From positions 1 through 41,918 of the forward strand of contig JANXYV010000060.1 in assembly GCA_025355875.1 (NCBI GenBank): a stretch of DNA of 41,918 nt. Direction: 5' to 3'. The notes below the pieces were generated by a model. It was not told the DNA's origin. It saw only the letters and a program-made list of their open reading frames with translations, and ran no database searches. Position 1 is the first letter of the stretch. The number at the start of each line of letters is the position of its first letter. The stretch is from Prolixibacteraceae bacterium (GTDB taxonomy: Bacteria > Bacteroidota > Bacteroidia > Bacteroidales > Prolixibacteraceae). Made by a program: the position numbers and the translations under genes. This document shows, one piece after another, positions 14,974 to 29,797 of this stretch.

Positions 14974-15744
14974 TTAATTTTCCGGAAGGTCTTTTTGGTT
15001 AAGCATGCAATTCCTGTTCCGGTTGTACGTTTTTTTGCCCAGAAAATCTTCCTGAAAATCTTGCCATACCACTTCCGGAAGTTCAGAAAGCGGCTTGTCC
15101 ATCAGTTCGCCGCCATCCTGTAAAACAAGCATGGATGGAGCCGGTGAATATTTTCCGATTGATGTGGACAGGAACTCTTTGAACTTTTCCAATTCTTGCC
15201 TTGAAAAAAGTATTGCATCTTCTGCCAGGAAATAGGAATAAGTATCAGCAGTCCAGCTCATTGGTTTAATCTTATACATCCATCCTTTTACATAGGGATC
15301 TTCATGTAATAACTCCGGATGGCTGTTCAAAACCGGGTTTGCTTCCAGTATTTCTCCGGAAATAGGAGAGAATATCTTTAGCATTTTACCCTGGTGATCA
15401 ATTTTTGCAAGCAACTCGCCCTTTTTTATTTTTTCGCCTGGTTCGCGAAGATTGCTGAATTTGACCTCTCCAATTAAATGAAGAAGCAGATCATCAAGAC
15501 CAACCCTTGCGATCCCTGAAACACCTAAGTGAGACCATATGTGATATTTGCTAAAAAAGAGTCCTTGCGGAATTTTTAATGAGTTGAGATTCAGGATTCC
15601 AGGTGATTTTTGCATTTGCTTCTTGTTTTTCACCTTTTTATTCAGAACAAGCCAGAAAGGTACCAGTACGGCAAAAAATGTGATAATTGCCAGGTATTCA
15701 ATTCCTTTCGTTTCGAAAATGTTGTGATATGTAAATCCGTCCAT
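14974..15744 (-). CDS. Membrane-anchored GcvH-like (lipoyl-fold) protein
   Basis: A 256-aa protein with one TM helix (17-35) followed by KKVKNKK, placing the rest in the cytoplasm. Residues 61-160 align with glycine cleavage H protein (GLFFSKYHIW, VGLDDLLLHLIGEV, REPGEKIKKGE, FSPISGEILEANP). At the lipoyl-lysine position there is G119, with K120 beside it. The C-terminus has LQDGGEL followed by a W-x-DFQ-x-x-FL motif, shared with the 563-aa paralogue at 17958. No other glycine-cleavage genes are present, so a role in glycine breakdown is unlikely. It probably works with the HybA/HybB-like module lying between the paralogues. Whether it carries lipoate on K120 is open. Confidence 0.75.
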   Translation of the reverse strand: MDGFTYHNIFETKGIEYLAIITFFAVLVPFWLVLNKKVKNKKQMQKSPGILNLNSLKIPQGLFFSKYHIWSHLGVSGIARVGLDDLLLHLIGEVKFSNLREPGEKIKKGELLAKIDHQGKMLKIFSPISGEILEANPVLNSHPELLHEDPYVKGWMYKIKPMSWTADTYSYFLAEDAILFSRQELEKFKEFLSTSIGKYSPAPSMLVLQDGGELMDKPLSELPEVVWQDFQEDFLGKKTYNRNRNCMLNQKDLPEN

Positions 15745-15840
15745 AGTTTTATTTATTTATGCTGCTATGTGCAGCTGTTTTTAATTATTAATTTCGTTTG
15801 TTCAACAACGGGCTCAGGTTTATCCTTTTCATTGGGCAAT

Positions 15841-17070
15841 TTAGTTTTCATTCCTCGCCCATGAGGGAGATTCTCTGAGAACCGGCATCCGGTTGATTAC
15901 CCAACGGAAAACCCATATTTCGGTAAAAATGACTGCCAGCGTAACCACAATCTCCATCCAAGAAGGAATATAGTGAACAGGTGTATCCCAATTAAATCCA
16001 ATGACTGAAACATTCAGCCGGTTCAGAATGATTCCAAGCATGGTCAAAATGGCCGCTACCCTGATCAGGGTAATGTTGTTCGTACGGTAACTGTAATAGA
16101 AAAGCATCATCGGAAGCAGAACAAAACCAATCATCTCAAACAGATACCAGTATCCCATGGGGGTATTCAGTAAATCCCAGTGCTTGCCATGAATAAAGAC
16201 AAGCAATTGCAGGAAGAAATAGGCAAACATGGCACCCGCACAGATTTTGGACAATCCGTGAAGAATTCCTTTTTCGGCATGGTGGTTTTTTTTACTGATC
16301 TGATGAGAAAATACTTTGCGACTGATCGTTCCTTCAAAAATGACCATGGAAAGACCGGCAAAGATGCTCGAAACAAGAAATAAAATGGGAATAAACTCGG
16401 AATACCACAGCGGATGAATTTTATCTTTGGCCATCAGGTAAAGTGCTCCTAATCCGGATTGGTGAAGGGTTGACAAAGTTATCCCGAAAATGACCGCGGC
16501 AATTGTTATTCCGGATAGGATTTTGTGGGCTCGCCGTGCACCAAGCCATTCAGCAATGGCGGGAGAAAATTCAATGAGTTCGGCCATCATATAGAGCATA
16601 AAATGCCAGGCCACCAAAAACAAGACCGAACTGGTTCCAAAACTATTCCCAATGATAGGGTTAATCACATTCCAGGGACGTCCGAGGTCAAGCAACAAAG
16701 CTCCGGCATAAAAAACGTATGCCAGACAGCCATTCAGAACAGTAATCCTCACAATGGAATGGTACTTATTCATTTTTAGGATATATACCATGAAGGTAAG
16801 CACGTAGGCACCTCCGGCGAAGGCAACACCGGTAACCACATCAAAACCTATCCATAAGCCCCAGGGAGTTTCCTGAGTCAGGTTAGTTACAGATCCAATT
16901 CCGTTAGCAAACCGTATGATAATTATTCCCAAACCCAATAGCATAATTGGGATAGAGACGATGTTGAACGGGGTAAGCCATTTTCCTTTTGGTCTTAATT
17001 CACTCCTGAAAAAACTCCAGATGGAGCGTCCATCATTATCTTTTACAATAGAATAGGAAGGGCTAGTCAT
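15841..17070 (-). CDS. HybB/NrfD-family quinone-interacting membrane subunit
   Basis: A 409-aa polytopic membrane protein of the NrfD/HybB superfamily, with about ten predicted TM segments starting near WLTPFNIVSIPIMLLG. The segments GGAYVLTFMVY and LLDLGRPW are typical of the family. It should exchange electrons between the quinone pool and the neighbouring periplasmic iron-sulfur protein. The frame is open to 17340, but the ATG at 17070 is chosen because it overlaps the preceding gene end by 8 bp (ATGACTAG) and the extra upstream residues read as antisense-like junk over that gene. No hydrogenase or molybdoenzyme catalytic subunit is adjacent, so the partner enzyme is unknown. Confidence 0.88.
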   Translation of the reverse strand: MTSPSYSIVKDNDGRSIWSFFRSELRPKGKWLTPFNIVSIPIMLLGLGIIIIRFANGIGSVTNLTQETPWGLWIGFDVVTGVAFAGGAYVLTFMVYILKMNKYHSIVRITVLNGCLAYVFYAGALLLDLGRPWNVINPIIGNSFGTSSVLFLVAWHFMLYMMAELIEFSPAIAEWLGARRAHKILSGITIAAVIFGITLSTLHQSGLGALYLMAKDKIHPLWYSEFIPILFLVSSIFAGLSMVIFEGTISRKVFSHQISKKNHHAEKGILHGLSKICAGAMFAYFFLQLLVFIHGKHWDLLNTPMGYWYLFEMIGFVLLPMMLFYYSYRTNNITLIRVAAILTMLGIILNRLNVSVIGFNWDTPVHYIPSWMEIVVTLAVIFTEIWVFRWVINRMPVLRESPSWARNEN

Positions 17071-17926
17071 TTTCTTCGTTTTTTGATTGGTTGTTTTTTG
17101 TTGCTTCGTGAATCCCAAGTAACAGTGTAGGCAAGAGAACAAACACAGATGGAACAGAGTATAAAAAGCCTTTTGACAATTCAGGATAGGATGAGTTTTG
17201 AATCTTTGGGTTAAATCCAAGTTCGTTGAATGGAACTGGTGATAAATATAGATATCCGGTTCCACCTGCAGTGCTCTCACCATAGATTTGATCTGTATAT
17301 GCTTTCGGAGTTTCGGCAATTCTTTTACGCGCTTCCGCAATCAATTCCCTTCGCGTTCCGGAAACTAAAGCTTCTCCGGGACAGGCATTCACACAGGTAG
17401 GTTTATCGCCTTTAAGGATCCTTTCATAACACATGTCGCACTTTTGAATTTTTGGATTGGCACTGTGGTATTCAAATTTGGGAACGTCAAAGGGGCAGGA
17501 AACCATGCAGTAGCGGCATCCCATACATTTTTCTTCTCTCCAAATGACAGGTCCTTCCTTTGTTTTGTACATGGCCTGAGTTAGGCAAGCAGCCGCACAG
17601 GCCGGTTCGTTACAATGCATACACTGCTTGCGAATAAAAACTTCGCCTTTGGAAGTGTTGTAATTATTTACCACACATCGCTGAGTTTCGCTTGTTTTTC
17701 TTAAAACGCCTGCCTTTACTTCATCTTGAGGTTCAGGCAGTTCATGTGCTGCTGCGCATGCTTTTTCGCATTCCTGACAACCAACACATCGGCTTGAATC
17801 GTATAATATCCCTCGAAATTCTATTTCCCCACTTTCTGGAGATGCAGCCCCAAGAGTACTGCCTACTGCGAGGGAAACTCCAATTACTCCGGCAGTTTTA
17901 AAGAATATTCTTCGATTTATGTTCAT
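17063..17926 (-). CDS. HybA-like Tat-exported four-cluster ferredoxin
   Basis: A 287-aa periplasmic electron carrier. A twin-arginine signal (INRRIFFKTAG) leads the protein. Four cysteine groups follow (CVGCQECEKAC, CMHCNEPAC, CMGCRYCMVSC, CDMC with CVNAC), enough for four [4Fe-4S] clusters. A hydrophobic C-terminal helix (SVFVLLPTLLLGI) anchors it to the membrane, as in HybA of hydrogenase-2. It overlaps the HybB-like gene by 8 bp and follows the PstS/GcvH-like fusion gene by 31 bp. HybA/HybB pairs pass electrons between a periplasmic enzyme and quinone; no catalytic partner is encoded next to this one. Confidence 0.9.
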   Translation of the reverse strand: MNINRRIFFKTAGVIGVSLAVGSTLGAASPESGEIEFRGILYDSSRCVGCQECEKACAAAHELPEPQDEVKAGVLRKTSETQRCVVNNYNTSKGEVFIRKQCMHCNEPACAAACLTQAMYKTKEGPVIWREEKCMGCRYCMVSCPFDVPKFEYHSANPKIQKCDMCYERILKGDKPTCVNACPGEALVSGTRRELIAEARKRIAETPKAYTDQIYGESTAGGTGYLYLSPVPFNELGFNPKIQNSSYPELSKGFLYSVPSVFVLLPTLLLGIHEATKNNQSKNEEND

Positions 17927-17957
17927 ATATTTGTTTTTATCTTGATTGACAGCTTAA

Positions 17958-19649
17958 TCATTTGGATGTATCGATGAATTCAGTTTGAAAATCTTCCCAA
18001 ATTTCAGGTCCAAGATCGGCTAAGACATGTTCAGAAAGCTCACCTCCATCCTGAAGAATTGTTGGTTGATAATGAATAGTATTTTCTTTACTTGATTCTA
18101 TCAAAAAATCTTTAAGTCTTGAAAATTCATCTTTTATCCAGGCCAAATATTGCTCAGCCATAAAGAGTAATTGAATCTCCCGGGCCCAATTTTTAGGTTC
18201 AATCAGGTATACCCAACCTTCAAAATATGGTGAAGAATTTATTATCGAAGAATCTGATAAAATTGTCGGATTTTGTTCCTTTATTATTCCTGAAATCGGG
18301 GCATAAATATGCAGTTGTTTTCCATTCCTTATGATTGTCAGAATCTGCTCTCCTTTTCTGATTTTTTCTCCCGGCTCTTTCATTTTGATTTTAGTCAGTT
18401 GTCCTGTAATTCGCTGAAGAAAATCGTCAATACCAATTCTTACGCTTCCATCTCTTTCCAAAAATGCCCATGTATGAGTTCTATCAAAGTACAAACCTTT
18501 GGGTGCAATAATTGAGTTTTCTTCCAAAACCGGATTAACATTGATGATACTATTCAGTTCATTGGATTTCTTATTTAATATAAACTTAATACCTTGATAA
18601 ATGATCATTCCTGCAACAATAAGCGAAAACAGAACCAATATCCAAATGCTTGAAAAAAGAGGCGAATTTGATCGAGGAGACTGAATACTTGGATTTAAAG
18701 CGTCCATGTTTGCTTGTTTATCTTTGCTTGAAAGAACACAATATCCATTTGGATTTAGATATTGCTGTCCTTCTGAATTTACCCAGTTCAGAAAAGCAAT
18801 TGAGTTTGCATCGGAAGGTTTTGATGCAGACGAAGCATAAATATTTACACATAATGATTTGGGATATTTTCCTATCCAAACTCCTCTGGTAAATGTGTTC
18901 AAATTAGAATAAATATTTTCTAAATTGTCAATCTTTCCATTCATGTTTTTATCTATCGGAAGAATGCAGATGCCTGACTTTAGTTCATTAGTGCTTGCGT
19001 CACATATATCAGAAAGCTTGCAGAAACCTATGGCAAACACATCTTTTTTGATTTCCTTAATGAGTTCTTCTGGAGAGATTCCTTTAGTTCCAATATAATT
19101 GTGGGGATCTGTTTTTGTGAATTTTGCCAGACATAATCTTAATTCCTCATTGTTCGATAAAAAGCAATGAATATTGGCATTCACTCCATGATTAATGAAG
19201 GTACTCCAATTCTGTATTTTAGGTTGAGTTAAAATCTTTGTAAATTCAGCCACAGAAAGTCCCCTTTTGAAAATTTCATCAAGTATTGGATTTTTAGTAC
19301 TTATAATCGGTACGATTGCATTACGGCCAATGATCATCTTCCAGGTTGTTTCTTCATTGAGGTACATAGAATTGTCATTAGAAACAATGTTAAGGCGTTT
19401 GCTTCCTGATGTTTGGTGATCATCAAGATTACTTAATGTAATTGACAAACTTGAATTAACTTTGAAATATTCATTTATCCAGTTCGTTACAAGGCCATTC
19501 ATTTCCGGAGAACTCGCGATATTTAAAGTATTTGCAGATGAGTCATAGGATTGAAAGCCTGTTTTGTTGCCATCCGTTGTATTGCACAGTCCTGATGTGC
19601 GAAAAGTTAAAAGTGACAACCCAATGATAAAGAAAGAGATGGTTTTCAT
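17958..19649 (-). CDS. PstS-like binding domain fused through a TM helix to a GcvH-like domain
   Basis: A 563-aa fusion. Residues 1-22 form a signal peptide. Residues about 40-310 resemble phosphate/oxyanion-binding proteins of the PBP-like family (NGLVTNWINEYF; PIDKNMNGKIDN; TRGVWIGKYPKSL; FLNWVNSEGQQYL). A TM helix (333-353) follows, then a cytoplasmic GcvH-like domain (385-485: GLYFDRTHTWAFL, IGIDDFLQRITG, EPGEKIRKGE, IYAPISG). The lipoyl-lysine position is G443, followed by K444. The C-terminal LQDGGEL motif (532-538) matches the paralogue at 14974. It is the first gene of the unit, behind a candidate sigma-54 promoter. It may link periplasmic ligand binding to a cytoplasmic lipoyl-fold domain; the ligand and chemistry are unknown. 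Confidence 0.75.
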   Translation of the reverse strand: MKTISFFIIGLSLLTFRTSGLCNTTDGNKTGFQSYDSSANTLNIASSPEMNGLVTNWINEYFKVNSSLSITLSNLDDHQTSGSKRLNIVSNDNSMYLNEETTWKMIIGRNAIVPIISTKNPILDEIFKRGLSVAEFTKILTQPKIQNWSTFINHGVNANIHCFLSNNEELRLCLAKFTKTDPHNYIGTKGISPEELIKEIKKDVFAIGFCKLSDICDASTNELKSGICILPIDKNMNGKIDNLENIYSNLNTFTRGVWIGKYPKSLCVNIYASSASKPSDANSIAFLNWVNSEGQQYLNPNGYCVLSSKDKQANMDALNPSIQSPRSNSPLFSSIWILVLFSLIVAGMIIYQGIKFILNKKSNELNSIINVNPVLEENSIIAPKGLYFDRTHTWAFLERDGSVRIGIDDFLQRITGQLTKIKMKEPGEKIRKGEQILTIIRNGKQLHIYAPISGIIKEQNPTILSDSSIINSSPYFEGWVYLIEPKNWAREIQLLFMAEQYLAWIKDEFSRLKDFLIESSKENTIHYQPTILQDGGELSEHVLADLGPEIWEDFQTEFIDTSK

Positions 19650-20106: not shown

Positions 20107-20703
20107 TCAGCATCCTCCACCTGATGATGATTTACTTCGTGTTGGCACAACTGATTTAGGGTTCTGATTGTTGGGCTTTATTACTGAAACATCTGATGAT
20201 TCGGTCTCAGCATGAAAAACTCCCAAATCCAGAATTGAATTTTCTGAATTGCCTGTTGCAGACTCCCTAAAATCATTTGTTATAGTAATTGCTCCCTTTA
20301 AAAACTTCAGGTTGTGGTAACCCAATTGTTGCAAAAGCAGCCAGGAACCAGTAGCATGCAACTCACTGCTTCCGCAAATGACTGCCATTGTTCCATTACT
20401 TTTTAGCTGATCCAAAATTTCAATTGATTCTTTATCGAGCAGGTTTCGTTCCGGAATGTTGATAGAGTTTTCCGGATGGCCTTGAAGAAATTGATCGGAC
20501 GAACGAATATCGATGAGTTGTTTCCCTGCCAGATCAGAAACGGAAACCGGAGCGGACGATGTGTTCATCAGTTTCAGAGCTTGCTTTGCACTCATTTCGA
20601 AATCATTGGTTTTGGGTCGGAACAATAAGGCCAGAAAAACAATGACAACAGCCAATCCGAGTAAACTTAACCAGGGTTTATTTGATTCTATAAATTGATT
20701 CAT
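20107..20703 (-). CDS. Membrane-anchored rhodanese with catalytic Cys and C-terminal GGGC tail
   Basis: A 198-aa single-domain rhodanese. An N-terminal TM helix (about 11-29) precedes FRPK, and the domain is probably periplasmic. The fold is recognisable from LIDIRSSDQFLQGHPENSIN. The active-site loop keeps the catalytic cysteine, C110 in VICGSS. A low-complexity linker of about 50 aa leads to the end SSSGGGC, with C198 as the final residue; these are the only two cysteines. A flexible Gly-Cys tail recalls the swinging arm of the sulfur carrier SoxY. The protein could pass sulfane sulfur from C110 to C198 or to its Cys-lacking paralogue. Last gene of the operon, with a terminator 70 bp downstream. 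Related in concept to the periplasmic Sud rhodanese that feeds polysulfide reductase in Wolinella. Confidence 0.85.
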   Translation of the reverse strand: MNQFIESNKPWLSLLGLAVVIVFLALLFRPKTNDFEMSAKQALKLMNTSSAPVSVSDLAGKQLIDIRSSDQFLQGHPENSINIPERNLLDKESIEILDQLKSNGTMAVICGSSELHATGSWLLLQQLGYHNLKFLKGAITITNDFRESATGNSENSILDLGVFHAETESSDVSVIKPNNQNPKSVVPTRSKSSSGGGC

Positions 20704-20750
20704 AGTTGCTTCTTTTGATTTTACTTTTGCCTTTTAACCTTTCCCTTTTC

Positions 20751-21374
20751 CTAACAACCACCTCCTGATTTGGCTGCAGGTGCTTTTCGCAATACATTAA
20801 CTTTTTCATAAGATTTTGAATCATCGGTGGCATCGCTAGTTTTTCCAGCCCCTGTAAAAAATTGTCGGGCAGCATTCCTGAAACTCACGAGATCAAGATC
20901 AGCTGATGAAGCTGTAGCCGAAACATCGCCAGGTTTGATGATGGTATTGTACCATTCGTTCAAACCACCTTTTAGAATATATAACCGGCTGATGGATAAA
21001 CGTGTACCAAGCACCCAAGCTTTTTCAGCTGTCAGATCCGAATTTCCATACAATACCTTATCCTTTCCAGGCTGATTTAAAAGTTCCAAGGTGCCTTTTG
21101 ACAGAAGCGAATCGGGTTGAATATTAATTGAGCCAGGCAAAGTAAACTTTTTAAACTGGTCGGTCGGACGAAGGTCGATGAGCATGAGTGTCGGATCATT
21201 TTCAATGATTCGGTGCGTGACCTGATCGGCTGATAAAAACCTCGATTTCTCTGCAATGGCCATTAATAGGCTCTTTGGATCGGTTTCCTTCAATTCTTTT
21301 TTCTTCTGAAGAACCACCAGCCCAAGGGCCAGAACAATCAGAAGAACTGCAAGTATGGTATATTTTCTTTCCAT
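20751..21374 (-). CDS. Membrane-anchored pseudo-rhodanese with C-terminal GGGC tail
   Basis: A 207-aa paralogue of the next gene. The N-terminal TM helix is about 6-24, followed by a KKK-rich junction. The rhodanese fold is kept (LIDLRPTDQFKKFTLPGSIN; LYILKGGLNEW), but the active-site loop reads VLYGNS, with G110 exactly where the paralogue has C110. The protein ends AKSGGGC, and C207 is its only cysteine. It therefore cannot be a normal rhodanese catalyst, and the conserved tail is the only possible persulfide carrier. It starts 13 bp after the upstream transporter gene. A carrier or scaffold role in sulfur transfer is inferred from this cysteine pattern and the neighbours. Confidence 0.85.
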   Translation of the reverse strand: MERKYTILAVLLIVLALGLVVLQKKKELKETDPKSLLMAIAEKSRFLSADQVTHRIIENDPTLMLIDLRPTDQFKKFTLPGSINIQPDSLLSKGTLELLNQPGKDKVLYGNSDLTAEKAWVLGTRLSISRLYILKGGLNEWYNTIIKPGDVSATASSADLDLVSFRNAARQFFTGAGKTSDATDDSKSYEKVNVLRKAPAAKSGGGC

Positions 21375-21387
21375 GATTTTCAGATGC

Positions 21388-21981
21388 TTAATATTCTACT
21401 TTTTTCACTTTCTTCTGAACCCAGGCTGCTCCGAAAAACATGCCCACTGCGGCCAAGACGAGAAAGAAAGTAAACAGTTCTGGCGAAATTCCAAAGGCCG
21501 AATTGATCATTTTGGCACCTTGCGAACCACTGTAATACATGTTTTCGAAAATAGGGAAGGATTCGGAAAACAGAAATACTCCAAGGAACATTCCTCCAAA
21601 GAAAACAAGTCCATCGAGCCGTCCGACTGCTGCGGCACACAGGCTTGTTCCTGGGCAAAAACCACCCATCGAAAATCCGATTCCCATGATGATTCCACCA
21701 ACGATGGCCGAGGTCAGAAAGGTTGGTTGTATGTAAAGCTGGGAGAAATCGACAAGTCCGAGATAGCTCAGGTAAAGCAAACCCATGGATGCTACAATGG
21801 CTGCCGTAAAAAACACTTTCACCACCACAAAATCGTAGCCAAAAAAGGTACCAATAATTTTGCGTGATGACGAAAAACCCGACGATTCGAGCGCAAAGCC
21901 AAAACCCATGCCGATGAATACGGCAAATATATTATCCCAAGCATGGGAAACTAATCCTGATGAAATAATTGGTCCGATCAT
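21388..21981 (-). CDS. YeeE/YedE family sulfur transporter, second half
   Basis: A 197-aa membrane protein with about five TM helices and the family motif GGFCPGTSLCAAAVG carrying C109 and C115. In TsuA/YeeE, which imports thiosulfate, conserved cysteines in such motifs line the substrate path. Here the transporter is split in two genes (PmpA/PmpB-like), this one 18 bp after the other half. A conserved LESSGF segment lies near the N-terminus. It probably moves thiosulfate or another sulfur species for the respiratory enzyme or for sulfur transfer; direction and substrate are inferred. Confidence 0.85.
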   Translation of the reverse strand: MIGPIISSGLVSHAWDNIFAVFIGMGFGFALESSGFSSSRKIIGTFFGYDFVVVKVFFTAAIVASMGLLYLSYLGLVDFSQLYIQPTFLTSAIVGGIIMGIGFSMGGFCPGTSLCAAAVGRLDGLVFFGGMFLGVFLFSESFPIFENMYYSGSQGAKMINSAFGISPELFTFFLVLAAVGMFFGAAWVQKKVKKVEY

Positions 21982-21999: not shown

Positions 22000-22527
22000 T
22001 TAAATCCAGTTTTTACGAAAAATCCAGGCTACAACGAAAGCCGTTCCGAAGATGGCCACCATGGTAATGTAACCGCCATAGGATAAAACGGCCATTCCGC
22101 TTAAAGCTGCACCACTGGTACAACCACGGGCCAGCTGGGCACCAAAACCAAAGACCAGGCCTCCTCCAAGGGCAAACCAAAGTCGGCGGCGGGAAGTGAT
22201 TTTGGGCGAATGTTCCACTTTCAATTTCAGGCGGTTAAAAACAATTCCTGAAATAAATGCTCCGGCCAAAACGCCCAGTACTTCATAAACCAGCCAGTTA
22301 TTCATGGGTTTTTTATCGCCACCTGCAAACTGGCAGTAGTATGCCGATTTTTCAACGTGCTGAGGCGCAATAACATTTACGGTTGCAGCTACCGTGTTTT
22401 TAACGGCACCGCTGGCTCCGAGCCCACGACCCGAAATGTAAAACGAAAGCAATAGAACTGTTCCCAACATCACTCCTCCTAAATAGGGATTAACATAGAA
22501 TGATCCGTCGTTTTTTATCTTTTTCAT
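22000..22527 (-). CDS. YeeE/YedE family sulfur transporter, first half
   Basis: A 175-aa membrane protein with four or five TM helices. The motif ARGCTSGAALSG contains C136, the counterpart of the cysteine motif in the other half. An additional C65 lies in a loop (YYCQFAGG). It belongs to the DUF395/YeeE-YedE family, in which a full transporter such as TsuA has both halves in one chain; here two short proteins presumably dimerise. It follows the NrfD-like gene by 60 bp and belongs to the same operon. Confidence 0.85.
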   Translation of the reverse strand: MKKIKNDGSFYVNPYLGGVMLGTVLLLSFYISGRGLGASGAVKNTVAATVNVIAPQHVEKSAYYCQFAGGDKKPMNNWLVYEVLGVLAGAFISGIVFNRLKLKVEHSPKITSRRRLWFALGGGLVFGFGAQLARGCTSGAALSGMAVLSYGGYITMVAIFGTAFVVAWIFRKNWI

Positions 22528-22587: not shown

Positions 22588-23529
22588 TCAGTATAAATAT
22601 CGTGTAATCTGTCCGGCTTCAACCATCAGGAATCGGAAGATTAATCCCCCTAAAAGAATTAGTACAGCCGGAACAACGATCGGGACTTTGTAGCCTTTTA
22701 ATTCAAATATTTCCAAAACAGCGGGGAATATCAGACCGAGAATCACAACGAATACGAAAAACGGAGCGGTAAATTTTCCGCCGAGAAATAGATTTGCTGC
22801 GTTAATCTGCACTTCCGATCCGGCCAGAAAGCCCATGAATAAATGGATAATAAAGAAGAGTTCGATGATGATGAGCAAAATGTCAATTCGTCCCATGATC
22901 TTTCGTTCCTTGTGATTTTTGCTCATCAGGATGATGGTTGCCGCACCGGTTGACATTCCGGAGACCAGAAACAATGGTCCAAGTATGGAAGTATTCCACA
23001 ATGGACGGGCATTGAATGCTGAAAGTAAAATCCCGGTATAAATTCCAAGAATAACCGCATAAATTGCCATCGGCCAGGCAATGAATTTCCTGTTCCGGAT
23101 TAGAAACTTTTCGATGTCTTTCAAAAACTGATATTTCCAATCCCATTTGGGGAAGATCTCACTCACATAACTGGCCGACCAGAGAATGGAAAGCGGCATG
23201 ATGATCATTAATACCCACGATCCCCAGCCCATGGGCGATTCCAAACGAATGGTGGTATAAAGCTGCCAGAAATAGAGTTTGTGTTTCAGGTCTAAAAACA
23301 ACATAAACAGCCCGATTGCCAGCGCAAAAGGAACAAGCATGGGTGCTTTTTTGACTGTTGCCGGCATCTTTTCTTCTTTTCCCATGAGGTAGAATACGCT
23401 GGCAAAAACCAGGATTCCGGCGGCCAAACCACCCAGAAAAAGATAAATGGGAATTTGCCAATGCCAGATGTTTAAATAAGGATCTATATTTGGAATATTA
23501 CGTCCGCTTGCGAATAATTCTTCTCTCAT
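22588..23529 (-). CDS. NrfD/PsrC-like membrane subunit of the molybdoenzyme
   Basis: A 313-aa polytopic protein of about eight TM helices. The start NIDPYLNIWHWQIPIYLFLGGLAAG, the segment LYTTIRLESPMGWGSW and the end FRFLMVEAGQITRYLY are characteristic of PsrC-type NrfD proteins. It anchors the iron-sulfur subunit and transfers electrons from menaquinol to it. Gene order PsrA-PsrB-PsrC is exact, with 19 bp to the ferredoxin gene. Length matches PsrC (about 310-320 aa). Homologues with thiosulfate, tetrathionate or arsenate-type catalytic partners look alike, so this subunit does not settle the substrate. Confidence 0.92.
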   Translation of the reverse strand: MREELFASGRNIPNIDPYLNIWHWQIPIYLFLGGLAAGILVFASVFYLMGKEEKMPATVKKAPMLVPFALAIGLFMLFLDLKHKLYFWQLYTTIRLESPMGWGSWVLMIIMPLSILWSASYVSEIFPKWDWKYQFLKDIEKFLIRNRKFIAWPMAIYAVILGIYTGILLSAFNARPLWNTSILGPLFLVSGMSTGAATIILMSKNHKERKIMGRIDILLIIIELFFIIHLFMGFLAGSEVQINAANLFLGGKFTAPFFVFVVILGLIFPAVLEIFELKGYKVPIVVPAVLILLGGLIFRFLMVEAGQITRYLY

Positions 23530-23548: not shown

Positions 23549-24082
23549 TTAAACGAGGTAAAATATCTGTGGTTTGGTACCTGCTTCAGGAGCCAGAGAT
23601 TTGAATTTCCGGTTCTTTAGTACGTTTACAATTTTCGAGTTCGGATCGTCGAGATCGCCAAAGTTCATGCAACTGGTCGGGCAAACACTTACACAAGCCG
23701 GATCTTTGCCTTCACGAACCCGATGAATACAGAAAGTACATTTATCGACATAACCTTCCGGATGTGAATAACGGGCATCATACGGACAGGCCTGGATACA
23801 GGCGCCGCAGCCAATACACTTGTTGTGTTCGACCAAAACTATTCCGCCTTCTTCAAAATGACTGGCACCGGTAGGGCAGCAACGAACACATGGAGAATTG
23901 GCACAATGGTTGCAGCGTTCGGAGCGGAGTTCGATGCTCACGTTCGGGTAAGTTCCGTCAACCACTTCAACCACCCAATCACGGCAGAAACCAACAGGTA
24001 CATTGTTTTCGGTCTGGCAGGCTACCACACAGTCGCTGCAACCCACACATTTCCGGGTATCAATAGCCATTACATATCTCAT
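23549..24082 (-). CDS. Four-cluster ferredoxin subunit (PsrB-like)
   Basis: A 177-aa electron-transfer subunit. Cysteine groups CVGCSDCVVAC, CNHCANSPCVRCC, CIGCGACIQAC and CTFC...CVSVCPTSC bind four [4Fe-4S] clusters. It has no signal peptide of its own; such subunits are exported bound to the Tat-carrying catalytic partner. It overlaps the catalytic gene by 4 bp (ATGA), which is typical of translational coupling, and is followed by the NrfD-like membrane subunit. It closely matches PsrB/PhsB/DmsB in length and layout. Confidence 0.93.
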   Translation of the reverse strand: MRYVMAIDTRKCVGCSDCVVACQTENNVPVGFCRDWVVEVVDGTYPNVSIELRSERCNHCANSPCVRCCPTGASHFEEGGIVLVEHNKCIGCGACIQACPYDARYSHPEGYVDKCTFCIHRVREGKDPACVSVCPTSCMNFGDLDDPNSKIVNVLKNRKFKSLAPEAGTKPQIFYLV

Positions 24083-26322
24083 GATTTTGCCTCCTTTTTA
24101 GGTTGATCTTTAATGAAAGTGACAAAGTTTCCACGCATTCCGGTGCCTCCCATGATAGGGTCAACCGAAATTTTACTGATCAGTTCGGTGTCGTTCACTC
24201 CGCGCCCAAAAGCATATGTCAGCGGTTTATGGTGATGTCCGAAGCCATGAACAATGTAAACCGAGTCCCAGCGGATTCGCTCCGTTACGCGTACTTTGAC
24301 TGAAAAATTTGAAACGATTCCATCCTGATTTTTGAGCCAAACATGTTGATCTTTTTTCAGACCCCACAATTCGACAACCTGAGGATTCACCCAAACCGCA
24401 TTTTCGGGCATCAGCGCCACCAAATTGCGGTTGTTGGCGGTACGGCTGAAGGTATGCATGGGCGCACGTCCGTATATCAGGCGGTAAAATCCTTCTTCCG
24501 GTTGATCGTGTGCGGTATATTTTGGCATCGGATCAAACCCGGCCTCTTCCAGTTCTTTCGAGTAGAAGTGTATTTTTCCTGAAGCGGTTTTGAATTGGTA
24601 ATCCGAATTTGGATCGATATAAACCGGTGTTTTGCGGGCAAATTTTTTCGTACCAACACGTTCCATTTCAGAAAGTGATAATCCCACCTGCTTCAGTTGC
24701 CAATCGAGTACTTCGCTGAAATTCTTATAGTTGTAATATGCGCTAAGACCCAAACGTTCGCCAATTTGTTTGGCAATCCACCAGGCAGGTTTAGTTTCGT
24801 ACAACGGTTCGACTGCAGGCATTCTCAGGCAAAGAGTTGGTTCGCGGTGAGCTGTCGCGCGTAAATCGTCGTACCGTTCAAGATAAGTGCATTCGGGTAA
24901 AACCACATCGGCGTAACCGGTAATTTCCATCGGCATGGTATCGACCACAACCAGCAATTCGAGTGATTGAATGGCTTTCATCAATTGCTCCTTCAGCGGT
25001 ATTGAAACAATCAGGTTTGTTCCTGAAACGATCCAACCTTTGATCTGGTGCTCTTTTCCTTCTTCCGGAATTGAGGCTTCTATAATGGTATTGGTGATTG
25101 ATTCTTTAGCGAGCGGATATCTGCCGTTCAAGGTATCCTGCCACGACCAGGAAGGTTTTGGATAGACCGGATGTGGAAATTCAGGAATTTTAAAACCTTC
25201 TTTCAGGAAGATTCCGCCACGACTTCCCCATGAACCTAGTAGAGCATTTAGAATGGCAATGGCGCGTGAACGCTGAACATCATCACCGTACCAGGTGGTG
25301 TGCCGTCCGGGATGAATAATTACTGCAGGTGATGCATTGGCCATTTCGCGGGCAGTCTGGCGGATTTGCTCCGGTTTGATGGTTGTAATTCCATACGCCC
25401 ATTCAGGAGTATAATCTTTTACATGATCCTTCAGTTCGTTATAACCTTCAGCATATTTGGCCACATATTCCTTATTATAAATGTCATCGTATATCAAAAC
25501 GTGAATCCAGGAAAGCAGCAAGGCCAGATCGGTCGATGGTTTGATAGGAAGCCAGTATTTCGATTTGCTGGCAGCGGTGGATAGGCGGGGATCTACGGTG
25601 ATTATCACGGCTCCTTTGTCGATGGCTTCCGACATTTCCTGAACCTGCCCATTGTGCATGTTCTCGCCAATGTGCGATCCGATCAAGACCATGCAGCGTG
25701 TGTCGCGAATGTCAGTGACTTCAGGGCTGCTAACCGATTCTCCGAATGTTAATTCAAAGCCGGTGTCGCGCGGGCCGCGGCATTGTGCAAACGATGGTGC
25801 GGTTACATTATTTGATCCGAAAGCGTTCAGAAGTTGAGTGAAATGCTTGCCTGAGGAGCCGTGATTAAACAAAGCCATACTTTCTGGTCCGTGTTTTTCA
25901 GCAATTTCCTTCATTTTATTGGAGATGAAGTCAAGTGCCTCGTCCCAGCTGGCTTCGCGATAAGTTTGTTCACCGTTCTTTATTACGCGCATCAATGGTG
26001 TTTTCAGTCGATCGGGGTCCGAAAACATTCCGACACCGCCTGTTCCGCGTGGACACAAACGACCGTTACATTGCGGATCGTCAGCATTGCCAATGATCTT
26101 TTGAATCTGATTATCGGGAGTAACATAAGCCCATCCGGCACATTTCCAAAAGCATACTTCACAATAGGTTGGAACCTTTTTCGCAAAGACAGGAGATTGT
26201 GATCCGATTGAGATATTTTTTGGTGATGAAGAACCAACAACCCATTTTGCCATTCCCCCTACAAGGGCTGTTGCTCCTAATCCCAATGAACTAATTTTTA
26301 TAAATTTCCTCCGCGAATGCAT
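24079..26322 (-). CDS. Molybdopterin oxidoreductase of the Psr/Phs family
   Basis: A 747-aa catalytic subunit. The start at 26322 gives a Tat signal (MHSRRKFIKISSLGLGATAL). The [4Fe-4S] site is C54-x2-C57-x3-C61 with C90 (RLCPRG). The likely molybdenum ligand is C181 in SFAQCRGPRD. Molybdopterin-binding segments such as LIGSHIGENMHNGQ, IITVDPRLS, HPGRHT and LPECTYLERYDD follow. Length and layout fit polysulfide/thiosulfate reductases (PsrA, PhsA), with tetrathionate, arsenate or selenate reductases as alternatives. The downstream sulfur transporter and rhodaneses favour a sulfur substrate. It is first in an operon of seven genes and has a good promoter at 26390-26420. Confidence 0.92.
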   Translation of the reverse strand: MHSRRKFIKISSLGLGATALVGGMAKWVVGSSSPKNISIGSQSPVFAKKVPTYCEVCFWKCAGWAYVTPDNQIQKIIGNADDPQCNGRLCPRGTGGVGMFSDPDRLKTPLMRVIKNGEQTYREASWDEALDFISNKMKEIAEKHGPESMALFNHGSSGKHFTQLLNAFGSNNVTAPSFAQCRGPRDTGFELTFGESVSSPEVTDIRDTRCMVLIGSHIGENMHNGQVQEMSEAIDKGAVIITVDPRLSTAASKSKYWLPIKPSTDLALLLSWIHVLIYDDIYNKEYVAKYAEGYNELKDHVKDYTPEWAYGITTIKPEQIRQTAREMANASPAVIIHPGRHTTWYGDDVQRSRAIAILNALLGSWGSRGGIFLKEGFKIPEFPHPVYPKPSWSWQDTLNGRYPLAKESITNTIIEASIPEEGKEHQIKGWIVSGTNLIVSIPLKEQLMKAIQSLELLVVVDTMPMEITGYADVVLPECTYLERYDDLRATAHREPTLCLRMPAVEPLYETKPAWWIAKQIGERLGLSAYYNYKNFSEVLDWQLKQVGLSLSEMERVGTKKFARKTPVYIDPNSDYQFKTASGKIHFYSKELEEAGFDPMPKYTAHDQPEEGFYRLIYGRAPMHTFSRTANNRNLVALMPENAVWVNPQVVELWGLKKDQHVWLKNQDGIVSNFSVKVRVTERIRWDSVYIVHGFGHHHKPLTYAFGRGVNDTELISKISVDPIMGGTGMRGNFVTFIKDQPKKEAKS

Positions 26323-26389
26323 TATGCTAATATTTAGAGTTTTGTCGAGAATTTTATATTGAACTCTGATCGTTTTGCTCAGGTTCAAA

Positions 26390-26625: not shown

Positions 26626-27051
26626 ATGGAAAAACAAAATCCGATATCAAGGAGTATTTTCATTCGAATTGCGACTGGCTTCATTTTAGGTCTGGTTGCC
26701 TGGGTTTGGTATCGGCTTTCAGGTTTTCAGACCGAAAAGGAGAACCTTTTGGAATTCAGACATGGTAAGGATATTCCAATGGGAATCAGCTTTTTTGAGA
26801 AATATTACCTCTACCGGACCGACAATTCAATACGTGCATTTTTAACCAAATGCACCCATGCCGGTTGCCGGATTGGAGCAAATACTGGTAATCTCCTGCA
26901 ATGTAATTGTCACGGGTCACAATTTGATGCCAAAACCGGTAACCCACTGAAAGGGCCAGCCATTAAACCCTTGCAGGAGATAGAATGCCAGTTTGATGAA
27001 AAGTCCGGGCAATGGGTGGTGAGGTTGCATGCAAAATCAACAAAAATATAG
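26626..27051 (+). CDS. Membrane-anchored Rieske [2Fe-2S] protein
   Basis: A 141-aa Rieske protein. An N-terminal TM helix (about 11-30) anchors it. The cluster motifs are C76-T-H78-A-G-C81 and C93-N-C95-H96-G-S, giving ligands C76, H78, C93 and H96 and the stabilising disulfide C81-C95 seen in high-potential bc-complex Rieske proteins. It precedes a cytochrome b-like gene with almost no gap, so the two form a Rieske/cytochrome b complex. The ATG at 26626 is preferred over 26614 because of the promoter position. A bc-type complex next to an anaerobic sulfur-type reductase suggests quinol oxidation with output to multiheme cytochromes. Confidence 0.93.
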   Translation: MEKQNPISRSIFIRIATGFILGLVAWVWYRLSGFQTEKENLLEFRHGKDIPMGISFFEKYYLYRTDNSIRAFLTKCTHAGCRIGANTGNLLQCNCHGSQFDAKTGNPLKGPAIKPLQEIECQFDEKSGQWVVRLHAKSTKI

Positions 27052-27052
27052 A

Positions 27053-29797
27053 ATGCATCTGCAAAAGCTAAAAAAATTCCTCCAATTTGATACTGCCGGT
27101 TGGATTGCCAGCTCATCGCTGTTGATCTGTGTGTTAAGTGGTATCTTTATAGCCATTCCTTATGATTTTACCCATGCACATCAGTCAGTTTCTGACTTGC
27201 TGTTGTACAATCCTGCCGGATCACTAGTTCGCAATTTTCATTACTGGAGTGCACAACTATTTTTCTTATTCACGGTTCTGCATGTTTACGATCATTTATC
27301 AAAGAATACCGAGACCAATATCAAAAACAAACGAACCTGGTTCATCCTGTTTCTGGCCTTGGTTTTTATGGGCTATGAAATGATTTCAGGTTTTATCCTG
27401 AAAGGCGATACGGCCGGAATTCAGGCTCACCGGGTTGTGGCTTCGCTTCTCGAATCTGTTCCCTTTTTCGGAAAACTTTTGAGTATCGCTTTTCTCGGAG
27501 TAAATGAAAACGGCCAGGTTGTTTACATTCAACATGTTGCTACCGGAACCATTTTGCTTTTCATAGCTGTTTTCGATCATATAAAAACCGTCTGGCCTAA
27601 ACGAAAATCATGGATTATCGTTTTCCTGATCGTTTTGATAGTGAGCATGTTATTTCGGGCGCCACTCGGTCAAACCGACACCGCACAAATCAAAGGACCC
27701 TGGTTTTTTGTGGGAATACAGGAAATACTTCATTTGACTAGCCATCCGGTATACATTATTGCTCTGATATTTTTTCTTCTTACGGTGATCTATTTTCTTC
27801 CCAACTTCAGGAAAAAGTACCGGATCCTGACCAAACGGATTTTGATGGCAGCAGGCATTTTTTACCTGATCATGACTTTGGTTGCTTTACTTTTCAGGGG
27901 CGAAAACTGGGAATGGAGATCGTGGAGCGAAAACCGTCTTTCGGGAGATCAACTTCTGATTTTTGATCCGGTAAATTTATTCAATTCTTCTACGCCAATT
28001 GTAATTCCTGCGAACCAGAAAAGAGAGAGTTGTATGCTTTGCCATGTATCGATGACTGGTTTGTCGGAGTCGCACAATCCAGCAGTGATGGGCTGCGTGG
28101 TTTGCCACAAGGGCGATTCGTATGCAACTGATAAGTCGACGGCTCACGAGAATATGATTTTGATACCTGGAAATTTTTCGAATGCACGGCAAACCTGCGG
28201 AACCCAAAATTGTCATCCTGATATTTTCAATCGAATGCGGAAATCACCGATGACCACTGAAAGCGGAATCATTGCCGTTGATAAATTTGTGTTTGGAGAA
28301 ACTTCTTCGCTAAACAATACTTTTCATGTTCAAAATCTTGGTCATTCAGCCGCCGACTCCCACTTGCGAAACCTCTGTGCGGGTTGTCATCTCGGAATGG
28401 AGAAAATCAAAACCGGAAATGCCGACTGGCTCGAACGGGGCGGTGGCTGCAATGCCTGTCACCTGCATTACACCGATCAGGCGACTGAAAGTATGAAGCG
28501 GATGCAATCCAAAACTTCAGGAAAGACCGGAGAGATTCACCCAACCATTGACATCCAGGTTTCGAACGACCGCTGTTTGAGTTGCCATAGCCGGTCGGGA
28601 CGAATTTCACTGAATTACGAAGGATGGAACGAAATAGGAGAGGGGACTGCCAGAAATAGTACAGTCCAAACAAAGGTTTTACCGGATGGCCGGGTGGTTG
28701 AATTTGTACAGGATGATGCTCACCATCAGAAAGGAATGGCTTGCATCGACTGCCATCCTTCCTATGATTTAATGGGCGATGGAAAAAATCATGTGCACAA
28801 GGAAAAGGCCGTGAACATTCAGTGTGTGGATTGCCATTCCAATGAAAAAGTGAATTCGATAGCCATTTCTTTGCTTCCGGATAAGGAATCACAAATGATC
28901 GCCTGGTTACGGAAATCTGATCCAAAAACCAAAGTGGTATTGACTTCGAAAAATCAATATCCTTTAATGAATACCCGGGCTGATTCATTGGACCGGATTT
29001 TCCTGAAGGATAAACTTTCAGGAAAAATGCATAAATCGAAACCTGTTGCTTCAGTTTGTACCAAAGGAAAGGGGCACAGCCGGCTGAGCTGTGAAGCTTG
29101 CCACACCGCCTGGGTACCTCAGTGCATCGGTTGTCACAATACGTTTGAGAAAGAAACATCGGGTTTTGATTTGCTGACCGGCAAAACCACCAAAGGTTCC
29201 TGGGTTGAATTTGCCGGGGAAAGCATGGCCGAAGCCCCTGTACTGGGTGTCAATTCAGCTACCAACCAGGTAGTAACTGCCATGCCAGGAATGGTGATTA
29301 GCATTGATAAAGAGTCATTTGAAAAGGGGAAAGGGACAAGCTTTCATCGCTTGTATGCGCCTGCATCAGGACATACGACGCAAAAGGAAGGCCGAAGCTG
29401 CAAATCCTGTCACAATGATCCGCTGGCTATTGGATTTGGTCGGGGCGAACTGATTTATCAAATTACTGAAAATACAGGAAACTGGACTTTTGAACCACGA
29501 TTTGCCATGAATCCGGCCGATCATCTTCCTGAGGATGCCTGGACCGGATTCCTTCAGGAAGCAAATGCACCCTATTCGACCCGTGACTGGCTGAGACCAT
29601 TCAATGTTTCGGAGCAAAAGCGGATACTGGAAGTCGGAGCCTGTCTGACCTGTCATGAGGAAAAATCAAAGGTGATGGATCAGGCTTTGGAGAATTGGGA
29701 GCAAGCCCTGGCGAGACGAAGTAAAAAATGTGTTTCGTCAAAGCTGTTTGGTTTTGAACTAAAACAAAAAGTCAAGCCTTTATCGAAGAAATCCTGA
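27053..29797 (+). CDS. Cytochrome b6-like domain fused to a dodecaheme cytochrome c
   Basis: A 914-aa fusion (922 aa if the ATG at 27029, overlapping the Rieske gene, is used; numbering below follows 922). Residues 1-290 are a cytochrome b domain with two His pairs, H71-x13-H85 and H169-x14-H184, the b6-type spacing, plus further TM helices. Residues about 330-880 are extracytoplasmic and hold twelve heme motifs: eleven CxxCH (335, 356, 450, 474, 516, 572, 599, 688, 699, 791, 872) and one CX4CH (390-396). With the Rieske protein it should oxidise menaquinol and pass electrons straight into a heme wire. Fusions of b-type and multiheme c domains are known in metal reducers (CbcL-like); the Rieske pairing here is distinctive. 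The acceptor is unknown. Confidence 0.9.
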   Translation: MHLQKLKKFLQFDTAGWIASSSLLICVLSGIFIAIPYDFTHAHQSVSDLLLYNPAGSLVRNFHYWSAQLFFLFTVLHVYDHLSKNTETNIKNKRTWFILFLALVFMGYEMISGFILKGDTAGIQAHRVVASLLESVPFFGKLLSIAFLGVNENGQVVYIQHVATGTILLFIAVFDHIKTVWPKRKSWIIVFLIVLIVSMLFRAPLGQTDTAQIKGPWFFVGIQEILHLTSHPVYIIALIFFLLTVIYFLPNFRKKYRILTKRILMAAGIFYLIMTLVALLFRGENWEWRSWSENRLSGDQLLIFDPVNLFNSSTPIVIPANQKRESCMLCHVSMTGLSESHNPAVMGCVVCHKGDSYATDKSTAHENMILIPGNFSNARQTCGTQNCHPDIFNRMRKSPMTTESGIIAVDKFVFGETSSLNNTFHVQNLGHSAADSHLRNLCAGCHLGMEKIKTGNADWLERGGGCNACHLHYTDQATESMKRMQSKTSGKTGEIHPTIDIQVSNDRCLSCHSRSGRISLNYEGWNEIGEGTARNSTVQTKVLPDGRVVEFVQDDAHHQKGMACIDCHPSYDLMGDGKNHVHKEKAVNIQCVDCHSNEKVNSIAISLLPDKESQMIAWLRKSDPKTKVVLTSKNQYPLMNTRADSLDRIFLKDKLSGKMHKSKPVASVCTKGKGHSRLSCEACHTAWVPQCIGCHNTFEKETSGFDLLTGKTTKGSWVEFAGESMAEAPVLGVNSATNQVVTAMPGMVISIDKESFEKGKGTSFHRLYAPASGHTTQKEGRSCKSCHNDPLAIGFGRGELIYQITENTGNWTFEPRFAMNPADHLPEDAWTGFLQEANAPYSTRDWLRPFNVSEQKRILEVGACLTCHEEKSKVMDQALENWEQALARRSKKCVSSKLFGFELKQKVKPLSKKS

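Follow-up and report, generated by a model that had tools for sequence, protein, structure and literature searches.

Membrane-anchored pseudo-rhodaneses with a terminal cysteine tail accompany respiratory sulfur reductases of Bacteroidota and are candidate tethered sulfur carriers

A sulfur-reductase operon of a Prolixibacteraceae bacterium encodes two adjacent membrane-anchored proteins, RhB and RhA, which combine a rhodanese domain lacking the catalytic loop motif with a Ser-Gly-Gly-Gly-Cys C-terminus. On balance, we regard it as probable that RhB and RhA are membrane-tethered thiol carriers that present sulfane sulfur to the reductase; we infer the chemistry, the direction of transfer and the docking. 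The recurrence of the tail beside sulfur-reducing enzymes points to what may be an overlooked family of tethered sulfur carriers.

The operon lies in a stretch of 41,918 nucleotides (contig JANXYV010000060.1 of assembly GCA_025355875.1), which was analysed as a whole and is called the window here. On the minus strand, between 26388 and 20107, its genes follow the order psrA-psrB-psrC-yeeE2-yeeE1-rhB-rhA:

24079..26388, minus strand: PsrA/PhsA-type molybdopterin subunit (PDB 2VPW, 665.9 bits; NCBIfam PhsA, 482.1 bits, cut-off 694)
23549..24082, minus strand: PsrB-type 4Fe-4S subunit (PF13247, 84.8 bits, and others)
22588..23529, minus strand: PsrC/NrfD-type membrane subunit (PF03916, 159.5 bits, cut-off 25.8)
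22000..22527, minus strand: YeeE2, C-half of the split transporter (PF04143, 79.8 bits, cut-off 27)
21388..21981, minus strand: YeeE1, N-half of the split YeeE/YedE-type sulfur transporter, five hydrophobic segments (PF04143, 50.9 bits, cut-off 27)
20751..21374, minus strand: RhB, membrane-anchored pseudo-rhodanese of 207 aa whose sole Cys is the C-terminus (ORF, Pfam, hydrophobic segment)
20754..20768, minus strand: terminal SGGGC codons (tail) of RhB (translation; Gly-Cys end in 74/74 complete first-position homologues)
20107..20703, minus strand: RhA, second membrane-anchored pseudo-rhodanese, 198 aa, with Cys110 and Cys198 (ORF, Pfam, hydrophobic segment)
20374..20376, minus strand: Cys110 codon of RhA, catalytic-loop column; Tyr in five close relatives (alignment)
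20110..20124, minus strand: terminal SGGGC codons (tail) of RhA (Cys last or second-last in 63/67 complete second-position homologues)

The molybdopterin, 4Fe-4S and NrfD-type anchor subunits stand in order, as in PsrABC/PhsABC complexes, and the substrate assignment is a prediction from sequence. Among PDB structures, 2VPW, which we take to be PsrABC of Thermus thermophilus, was the best sequence match of the window PsrA, aligned over 24-760 with the score given above. The NCBIfam PhsA equivalog cut-off was missed by PsrA, and none was reached by the PsrB-type subunit among the 25 matches listed. Close to its N-terminus PsrA carries a Tat-like motif, SRRKFIK. YeeE1 and YeeE2 are half-length neighbours that both match PF04143 and thus form a split YeeE/YedE transporter. 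At 27029-29797 of the window lies a cytochrome b fused to a multihaem region, which resembles Geobacter ExtM (256.6 bits, cut-off 800) and adjoins a Rieske-like ORF, divergent from psrA; related ORFs adjoin psrA in many of the best 80 of at least 129 loci.

RhB and RhA share one layout: an N-terminal hydrophobic segment, a rhodanese domain, a low-complexity linker and the SGGGC end. Their PF00581 scores (46.9 and 46.2 bits, cut-off 22.2) place both in the rhodanese superfamily. ORFs and Pfam matches confirmed the adjacent paralogues of 198 and 207 aa, with N-terminal transmembrane helix, rhodanese fold, linker and SGGGC end, that the earlier note on this DNA had described; its observation that RhB has Gly at the catalytic column and no Cys besides the terminal one was likewise correct.

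Homologous loci were located with YeeE1 as the anchor, which kept the carriers out of the search key, and the best 80 of at least 129 confirmed loci made up the locus set. Selection by YeeE1 biases the association of YeeE with the tail, and the loci, being related, do not give independent counts. The rhodanese-finding HMM applied to the loci was built from alignment A1, with six rows, all tailed. In 74 of these best 80 of at least 129 loci, the first rhodanese-like protein that follows YeeE1 or is fused to it is complete, and all 74 end in Gly-Cys (73 GGC, 1 EGC). Three of the remaining first-position proteins are cut at a contig end and three are absent, in two cases where the contig stops; the third such locus, L078, was rejected as a YeeE pair without carriers, since a tailed pair and psrABC lie elsewhere in its genome. 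Within the same best 80 of at least 129 loci, the second-position protein has the tail, with Cys last or second-last, in 63 of 67 complete cases; second paralogues of L046, L070 and L073 are without it, the tail of L089 is present but out of frame, no second rhodanese was seen in 12 loci and one is cut. Among 708 further ORFs (150 aa or longer) in these loci, 3 end in Cys and one of them in GGC; this one, in L100, belongs to a double rhodanese, sharing 43% identity with the C-terminal half of that of L088. The tail frequency is far above chance. The earlier note had named same-context homologues without the terminal Cys as evidence against its reading; none was found among the 74 complete first paralogues, but 4 of 67 complete second paralogues lack the tail in frame, one of them (L089) with an out-of-frame copy.

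For a phylum-wide search, a profile with the tail included was used to rank 395 genomes, of which 289 matched. All 29 loci from the top of this ranking (L111-L139) are tailed. A lower-ranked sample took 40 of the next 46 places, leaving out three for internal stops, G000 and G401 as loci already in the set, and G617. In this sample 34 places adjoin YeeE, of which 33 have Cys last or second-last and one (L221) has the tail out of frame; the six places away from YeeE had no tail. Loss of the tail in L089 and L221 was therefore rejected. L099 and L117 seem to be one genome occurring in two samples. Alignments A4 and A5 hold tail-bearing rows that we chose, and for this reason their invariant GGC columns were not used as evidence. 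GGC is the commonest spelling of the tail, with EGC, DGC, MGC and one FQC beside it and a few ends in which the Cys is followed by one more residue. What stays constant in the tail is the terminal Cys, and GG is not required.

Some loci depart from the usual arrangement. In L070 (9309-11275), RhA is tail-less and it is the double rhodanese next to it that carries a GGC end, whereas in the other flavobacterial loci listed the double rhodaneses have no tail; a hand-over of the tail from RhA to the double rhodanese is possible. L166-L170 have a single tailed protein with an EGC end beside psrABC and YeeE, and in L169 YeeE1 and the rhodanese form one reading frame in a Psr context.

The earlier note took C110 of RhA for a kept active site and the pair for one catalytic rhodanese plus one pseudo-rhodanese. 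The loop at Cys110 reads ICGSSELHAT, which does not contain CxxGx(x)[SA], the motif that we chose to score. In alignment A5, moreover, Tyr occupies the Cys110 column in L021, L022, L023, L024 and L028, whose RhA proteins are 46-57% identical to that of the window. With Tyr in these five close relatives, Cys110 is probably derived, most simply by a lineage-specific, recent Tyr-to-Cys change, and we dropped it as a retained active site. The motif is absent from all 130 tailed single-domain proteins (including six from the window and its first two relatives) and from all 13 YeeE1-rhodanese fusions, every one of which is tailed. Among the 130, Cys stands at the catalytic column in two, the RhA proteins of the window and of L042, and elsewhere in the ten-residue loop stretch in five more. 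RhB and RhA thus do not have the catalytic Cys in its loop motif by which catalytic rhodaneses and thiosulfate sulfurtransferases are recognised; both come from a family without the catalytic loop, and the proposed division of labour within the pair did not hold. CxxG loops with the motif are present in all 30 double rhodaneses found in the loci, of which 10 are tailed, and this third protein would fit the catalytic role in other loci better. Of 127 single-domain proteins with a GGC end, 68 have no Cys other than that of the tail.

The tails of the two paralogues are matched within each locus. For 55 loci in which a single-domain pair is intact, we compared the eight residues that precede the final three. 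RhB and RhA of the same locus are 0.76 identical in the tail and 0.26 in the rest; between loci, RhB domains are 0.44 and RhB tails 0.38 identical. None of 5000 permutations reached the within-locus tail identity. Against same-clade controls, the within-locus identity was greater in 53 of 54 loci (RhB domains 0.45-0.85 identical) and, under the stricter range of 0.55-0.85, in 35 of 37. Loci that have a fusion or whose double rhodanese is tailed, mostly octaheme loci, show a weaker effect (0.28 within vs 0.13 between). Identical tail residues share the same codon in 298 of 497 cases, where 260.4 are expected; given this modest excess, gene conversion may contribute, but much of the match lies at the protein level, and we rejected conversion as the main cause. 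Tails this alike on domains only 26% identical suggest one shared partner, and the plain reading would be one docking site that both tails fit. In two Lutibacter assemblies (L067 vs L068), AEAEGGC stands against APAEGGC, with the same change in both paralogues.

The predicted topology places the tail outside the cytoplasm. In the 13 fusions, the presumed inner loops carry on average 2.0 (TM1-2) and 4.1 (TM5-6) Lys/Arg and the outer TM2-3 loop 0.2, with the TM3-4 (0.8) and TM4-5 (1.1) means not discriminating between the sides; these charges fit a rhodanese located outside. Lipobox-like starts, found with a simple pattern in 17 of 30 double rhodaneses and in 8 of the 10 tailed ones, would agree with an exported tail. 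In the 127 single-domain proteins the topology is not clean: the N-side is more positive in 88, even in 14 and less positive in 25, the last with a reversed charge bias.

Psr-type ORFs were found at 63 of the best 80 of at least 129 loci and an ORF with 7-8 haem motifs in their place at 11; neither reductase was seen at 6 of these 80, five of which are on contig pieces shorter than 10 kb. The haem ORF of L079, the one that was run, belongs to the octaheme tetrathionate-reductase family TIGR04315 (559.5 bits, cut-off 375), and its neighbour is cytochrome b561-like. The tail module therefore accompanies two unrelated reductases, PsrABC-type and octaheme-type. Much of what the earlier note proposed for the pair stands: the tail Cys is the conserved residue (74/74 complete first paralogues) and, by prediction, the best candidate carrier site, RhB and RhA most likely face the periplasm, and the association with PsrABC and YeeE is real and wide. 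Its catalytic/pseudo-rhodanese split is the part that falls.

We propose the following model. RhB and RhA would be non-catalytic carriers anchored in the inner membrane, in which the rhodanese fold persists as a scaffold or docking body and the functional thiol has moved from the catalytic loop to the Cys that ends a flexible tail. In the periplasm, the tail Cys would load sulfane sulfur from thiosulfate, from polysulfide or, where present, from the active double rhodanese. The resulting persulfide would be offered to the adjacent respiratory sulfur reductase, the receiver being the PsrABC-type enzyme in the window and, in other genomes, the octaheme enzyme of tetrathionate-reductase type. On that side of the membrane the YeeE pair probably takes up or delivers sulfur, but it is not strictly required. 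A wider hypothesis, to which we give a little less than even chances, is carrier-bound sulfur respiration as a reductive counterpart of Sox: tethered pseudo-rhodaneses would feed at least two unrelated reductases from a C-terminal Cys arm, with the double rhodanese (sometimes tailed itself) as loader, the split YeeE as exchange channel and the arms coevolving in each genome to one docking site.

The main rival to a reductase as receiver is that the tail Cys serves the YeeE pair, handing sulfur into the split channel or receiving it from there. Thirteen proteins of the best 80 of at least 129 loci are fusions of YeeE1 with a tailed rhodanese, and a tail follows YeeE in all 74 complete cases; a passage of the SoxT paper considers it conceivable that SoxY sulfur is passed along channel cysteines, and itself questions direct Cys-to-Cys transfer (PMC11582611). 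The 74 cases, however, come from loci picked by YeeE1, and two genomes argue against YeeE as the only partner. In G552, which is 99% complete and has no PF04143 protein, the order is psrA-psrB-psrC-rhB-rhA with matched tails; the tail thus does not need YeeE, and the reductase is the partner that remains there. In G654 (L078, L230, L231), the set is split over three separate places, with psrABC at one, the YeeE pair at another and the tailed pair at the third together with a double rhodanese, so linkage to YeeE is not obligatory. We consider service to YeeE instead of the reductase unlikely, at roughly one chance in several, and weakened above all by G552; transfer to both partners is compatible.

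Less probable still is a structural or redox role, in which the tail cysteines form disulfides among RhA, RhB and their partners, or pass electrons, and carry no sulfur. Two matched tails in an operon could form a heterodisulfide, and a thiol with such a role would be conserved in much the same way. Against this, only one tailed protein was found in the stretch read of L080, L082, L084, L096, L099 and L166-L170, and the 68 single-Cys proteins among 127 have no internal dithiol couple. The sulfur-enzyme setting at 74 of the best 80 of at least 129 loci and the active double rhodaneses of several loci also speak for sulfur carriage.

We judge it very improbable that the carried chalcogen is selenium or tellurium. 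The resemblance of the neighbour at 27029-29797 to the Geobacter selenite/tellurite cytochrome ExtM, a rhodanese-like ExtH mentioned in a passage on the ext cluster (PMC5877670), and weak matches of the YeeE parts to the YedE selenium transporter would favour it, but the ExtM score (256.6 bits, cut-off 800) and the YedE scores are far under their cut-offs, the nearest matches of PsrA are the Thermus polysulfide/thiosulfate reductase and PhsA, and the octaheme contexts point to tetrathionate.

Equally hard to credit is a role as a tag by which a dedicated enzyme recognises the C-terminus for sorting or processing, as with PEP-CTERM and GlyGly-CTERM: the tail is short, strictly C-terminal and common to several proteins per genome, but no hydrophobic or basic segment follows the motif, and pattern searches for two tail spellings in nine genomes did not find the same tag on many unrelated proteins. 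The EGGC pattern gave 22 matches in eight named genomes, 16 of them ends of tailed operon frames longer than 200 aa and the other six in frames of at most 28 aa or without a stop. GGGC-stop matched four times in the window's genome, twice in the window genes and twice in copies of one short repeat at contig starts, in frames of about 40 codons. Where tested, the tail is restricted to these operons, and we dropped the idea of a genome-wide sorting tag.

The favoured reading, tethered carriers for the reductase, can be set beside known systems. Sud is soluble and carries polysulfide on its loop Cys. Like Sud (PDB 1QXN, a weak match of profile A4, E 2.5e-4, 24.1 bits), the tailed proteins are rhodanese-like in sequence and stand beside PsrABC (Psr-type ORFs at 63 of the best 80 of at least 129 loci); unlike Sud, they are membrane-anchored, lack the loop motif and have the Cys on the tail, the loop Cys being absent in RhB and aligned to that column in 2 of 130 tailed proteins. 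In Wolinella succinogenes, Sud presents polysulfide to PsrABC, as a passage of PMC2628731 describes. The window PsrA resembles the Thermus enzyme over the span given above (2VPW, 24-760).

The arm of SoxY is C-terminal and ends in GGCGG. The tails here likewise place a Cys on a Gly-rich C-terminal arm (GGC, with EGC, DGC, MGC and FQC variants), and given these variants and the ends extended by one residue the likeness is loose. Unlike SoxY, described in part of PMC11237559 as a periplasmic sulfur carrier with its reactive Cys on a "swinging arm", RhB and RhA have a membrane anchor, a reductase context, other partners and often two paralogues with matched tails; at E 0.001 Pfam found PF00581 alone in them and no SoxY domain. 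The best reading, by analogy, may be carriers like Sud in role and SoxY in geometry that belong to neither family. The split YeeE proteins PmpA/PmpB are encoded by half-length genes with one conserved Cys each, and YeeE-type proteins such as SoxT are tied to sulfur carriers, according to passages of PMC11582611. Unlike these, YeeE1 here has a tailed pseudo-rhodanese after it or fused to it.

For PsrABC of Thermus thermophilus, we know of no tailed carrier of the kind described here. Thiocarboxylate carriers, such as ThiS/MoaD and QbsE-type precursors, have an invariant GlyGly at the mature end, which the EGC, DGC, MGC and FQC tails do not share. We found no description of tailed pseudo-rhodaneses in the open-licence literature; other publications may already mention them.

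In the usual scheme of periplasmic sulfur reduction, the reductase is reached by free polysulfide or thiosulfate, or by soluble Sud. If true, a tethered carrier of wide occurrence would change this picture for many Bacteroidota and perhaps for neighbouring groups, as Ignavibacteriae and Holophagaceae assemblies are among the matches listed. The carriers also occur in cultured strains, including Lutibacter, Maribacter and a Polaribacter. They would exemplify an enzyme fold that lacks its active site and bears its reactive thiol on a tail, and the GGC tail is a strong sequence marker for such loci.

A second redox cluster lies at 14974-19649 of the window and comprises two GcvH-like proteins, an HmcC-like NrfD protein (401.4 bits, cut-off 550) and an Fe-S protein. 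One of the GcvH-like proteins has a long N-terminal region that by eye is like a periplasmic binding protein. In L021, the genes of this cluster stand directly after the carrier pair.
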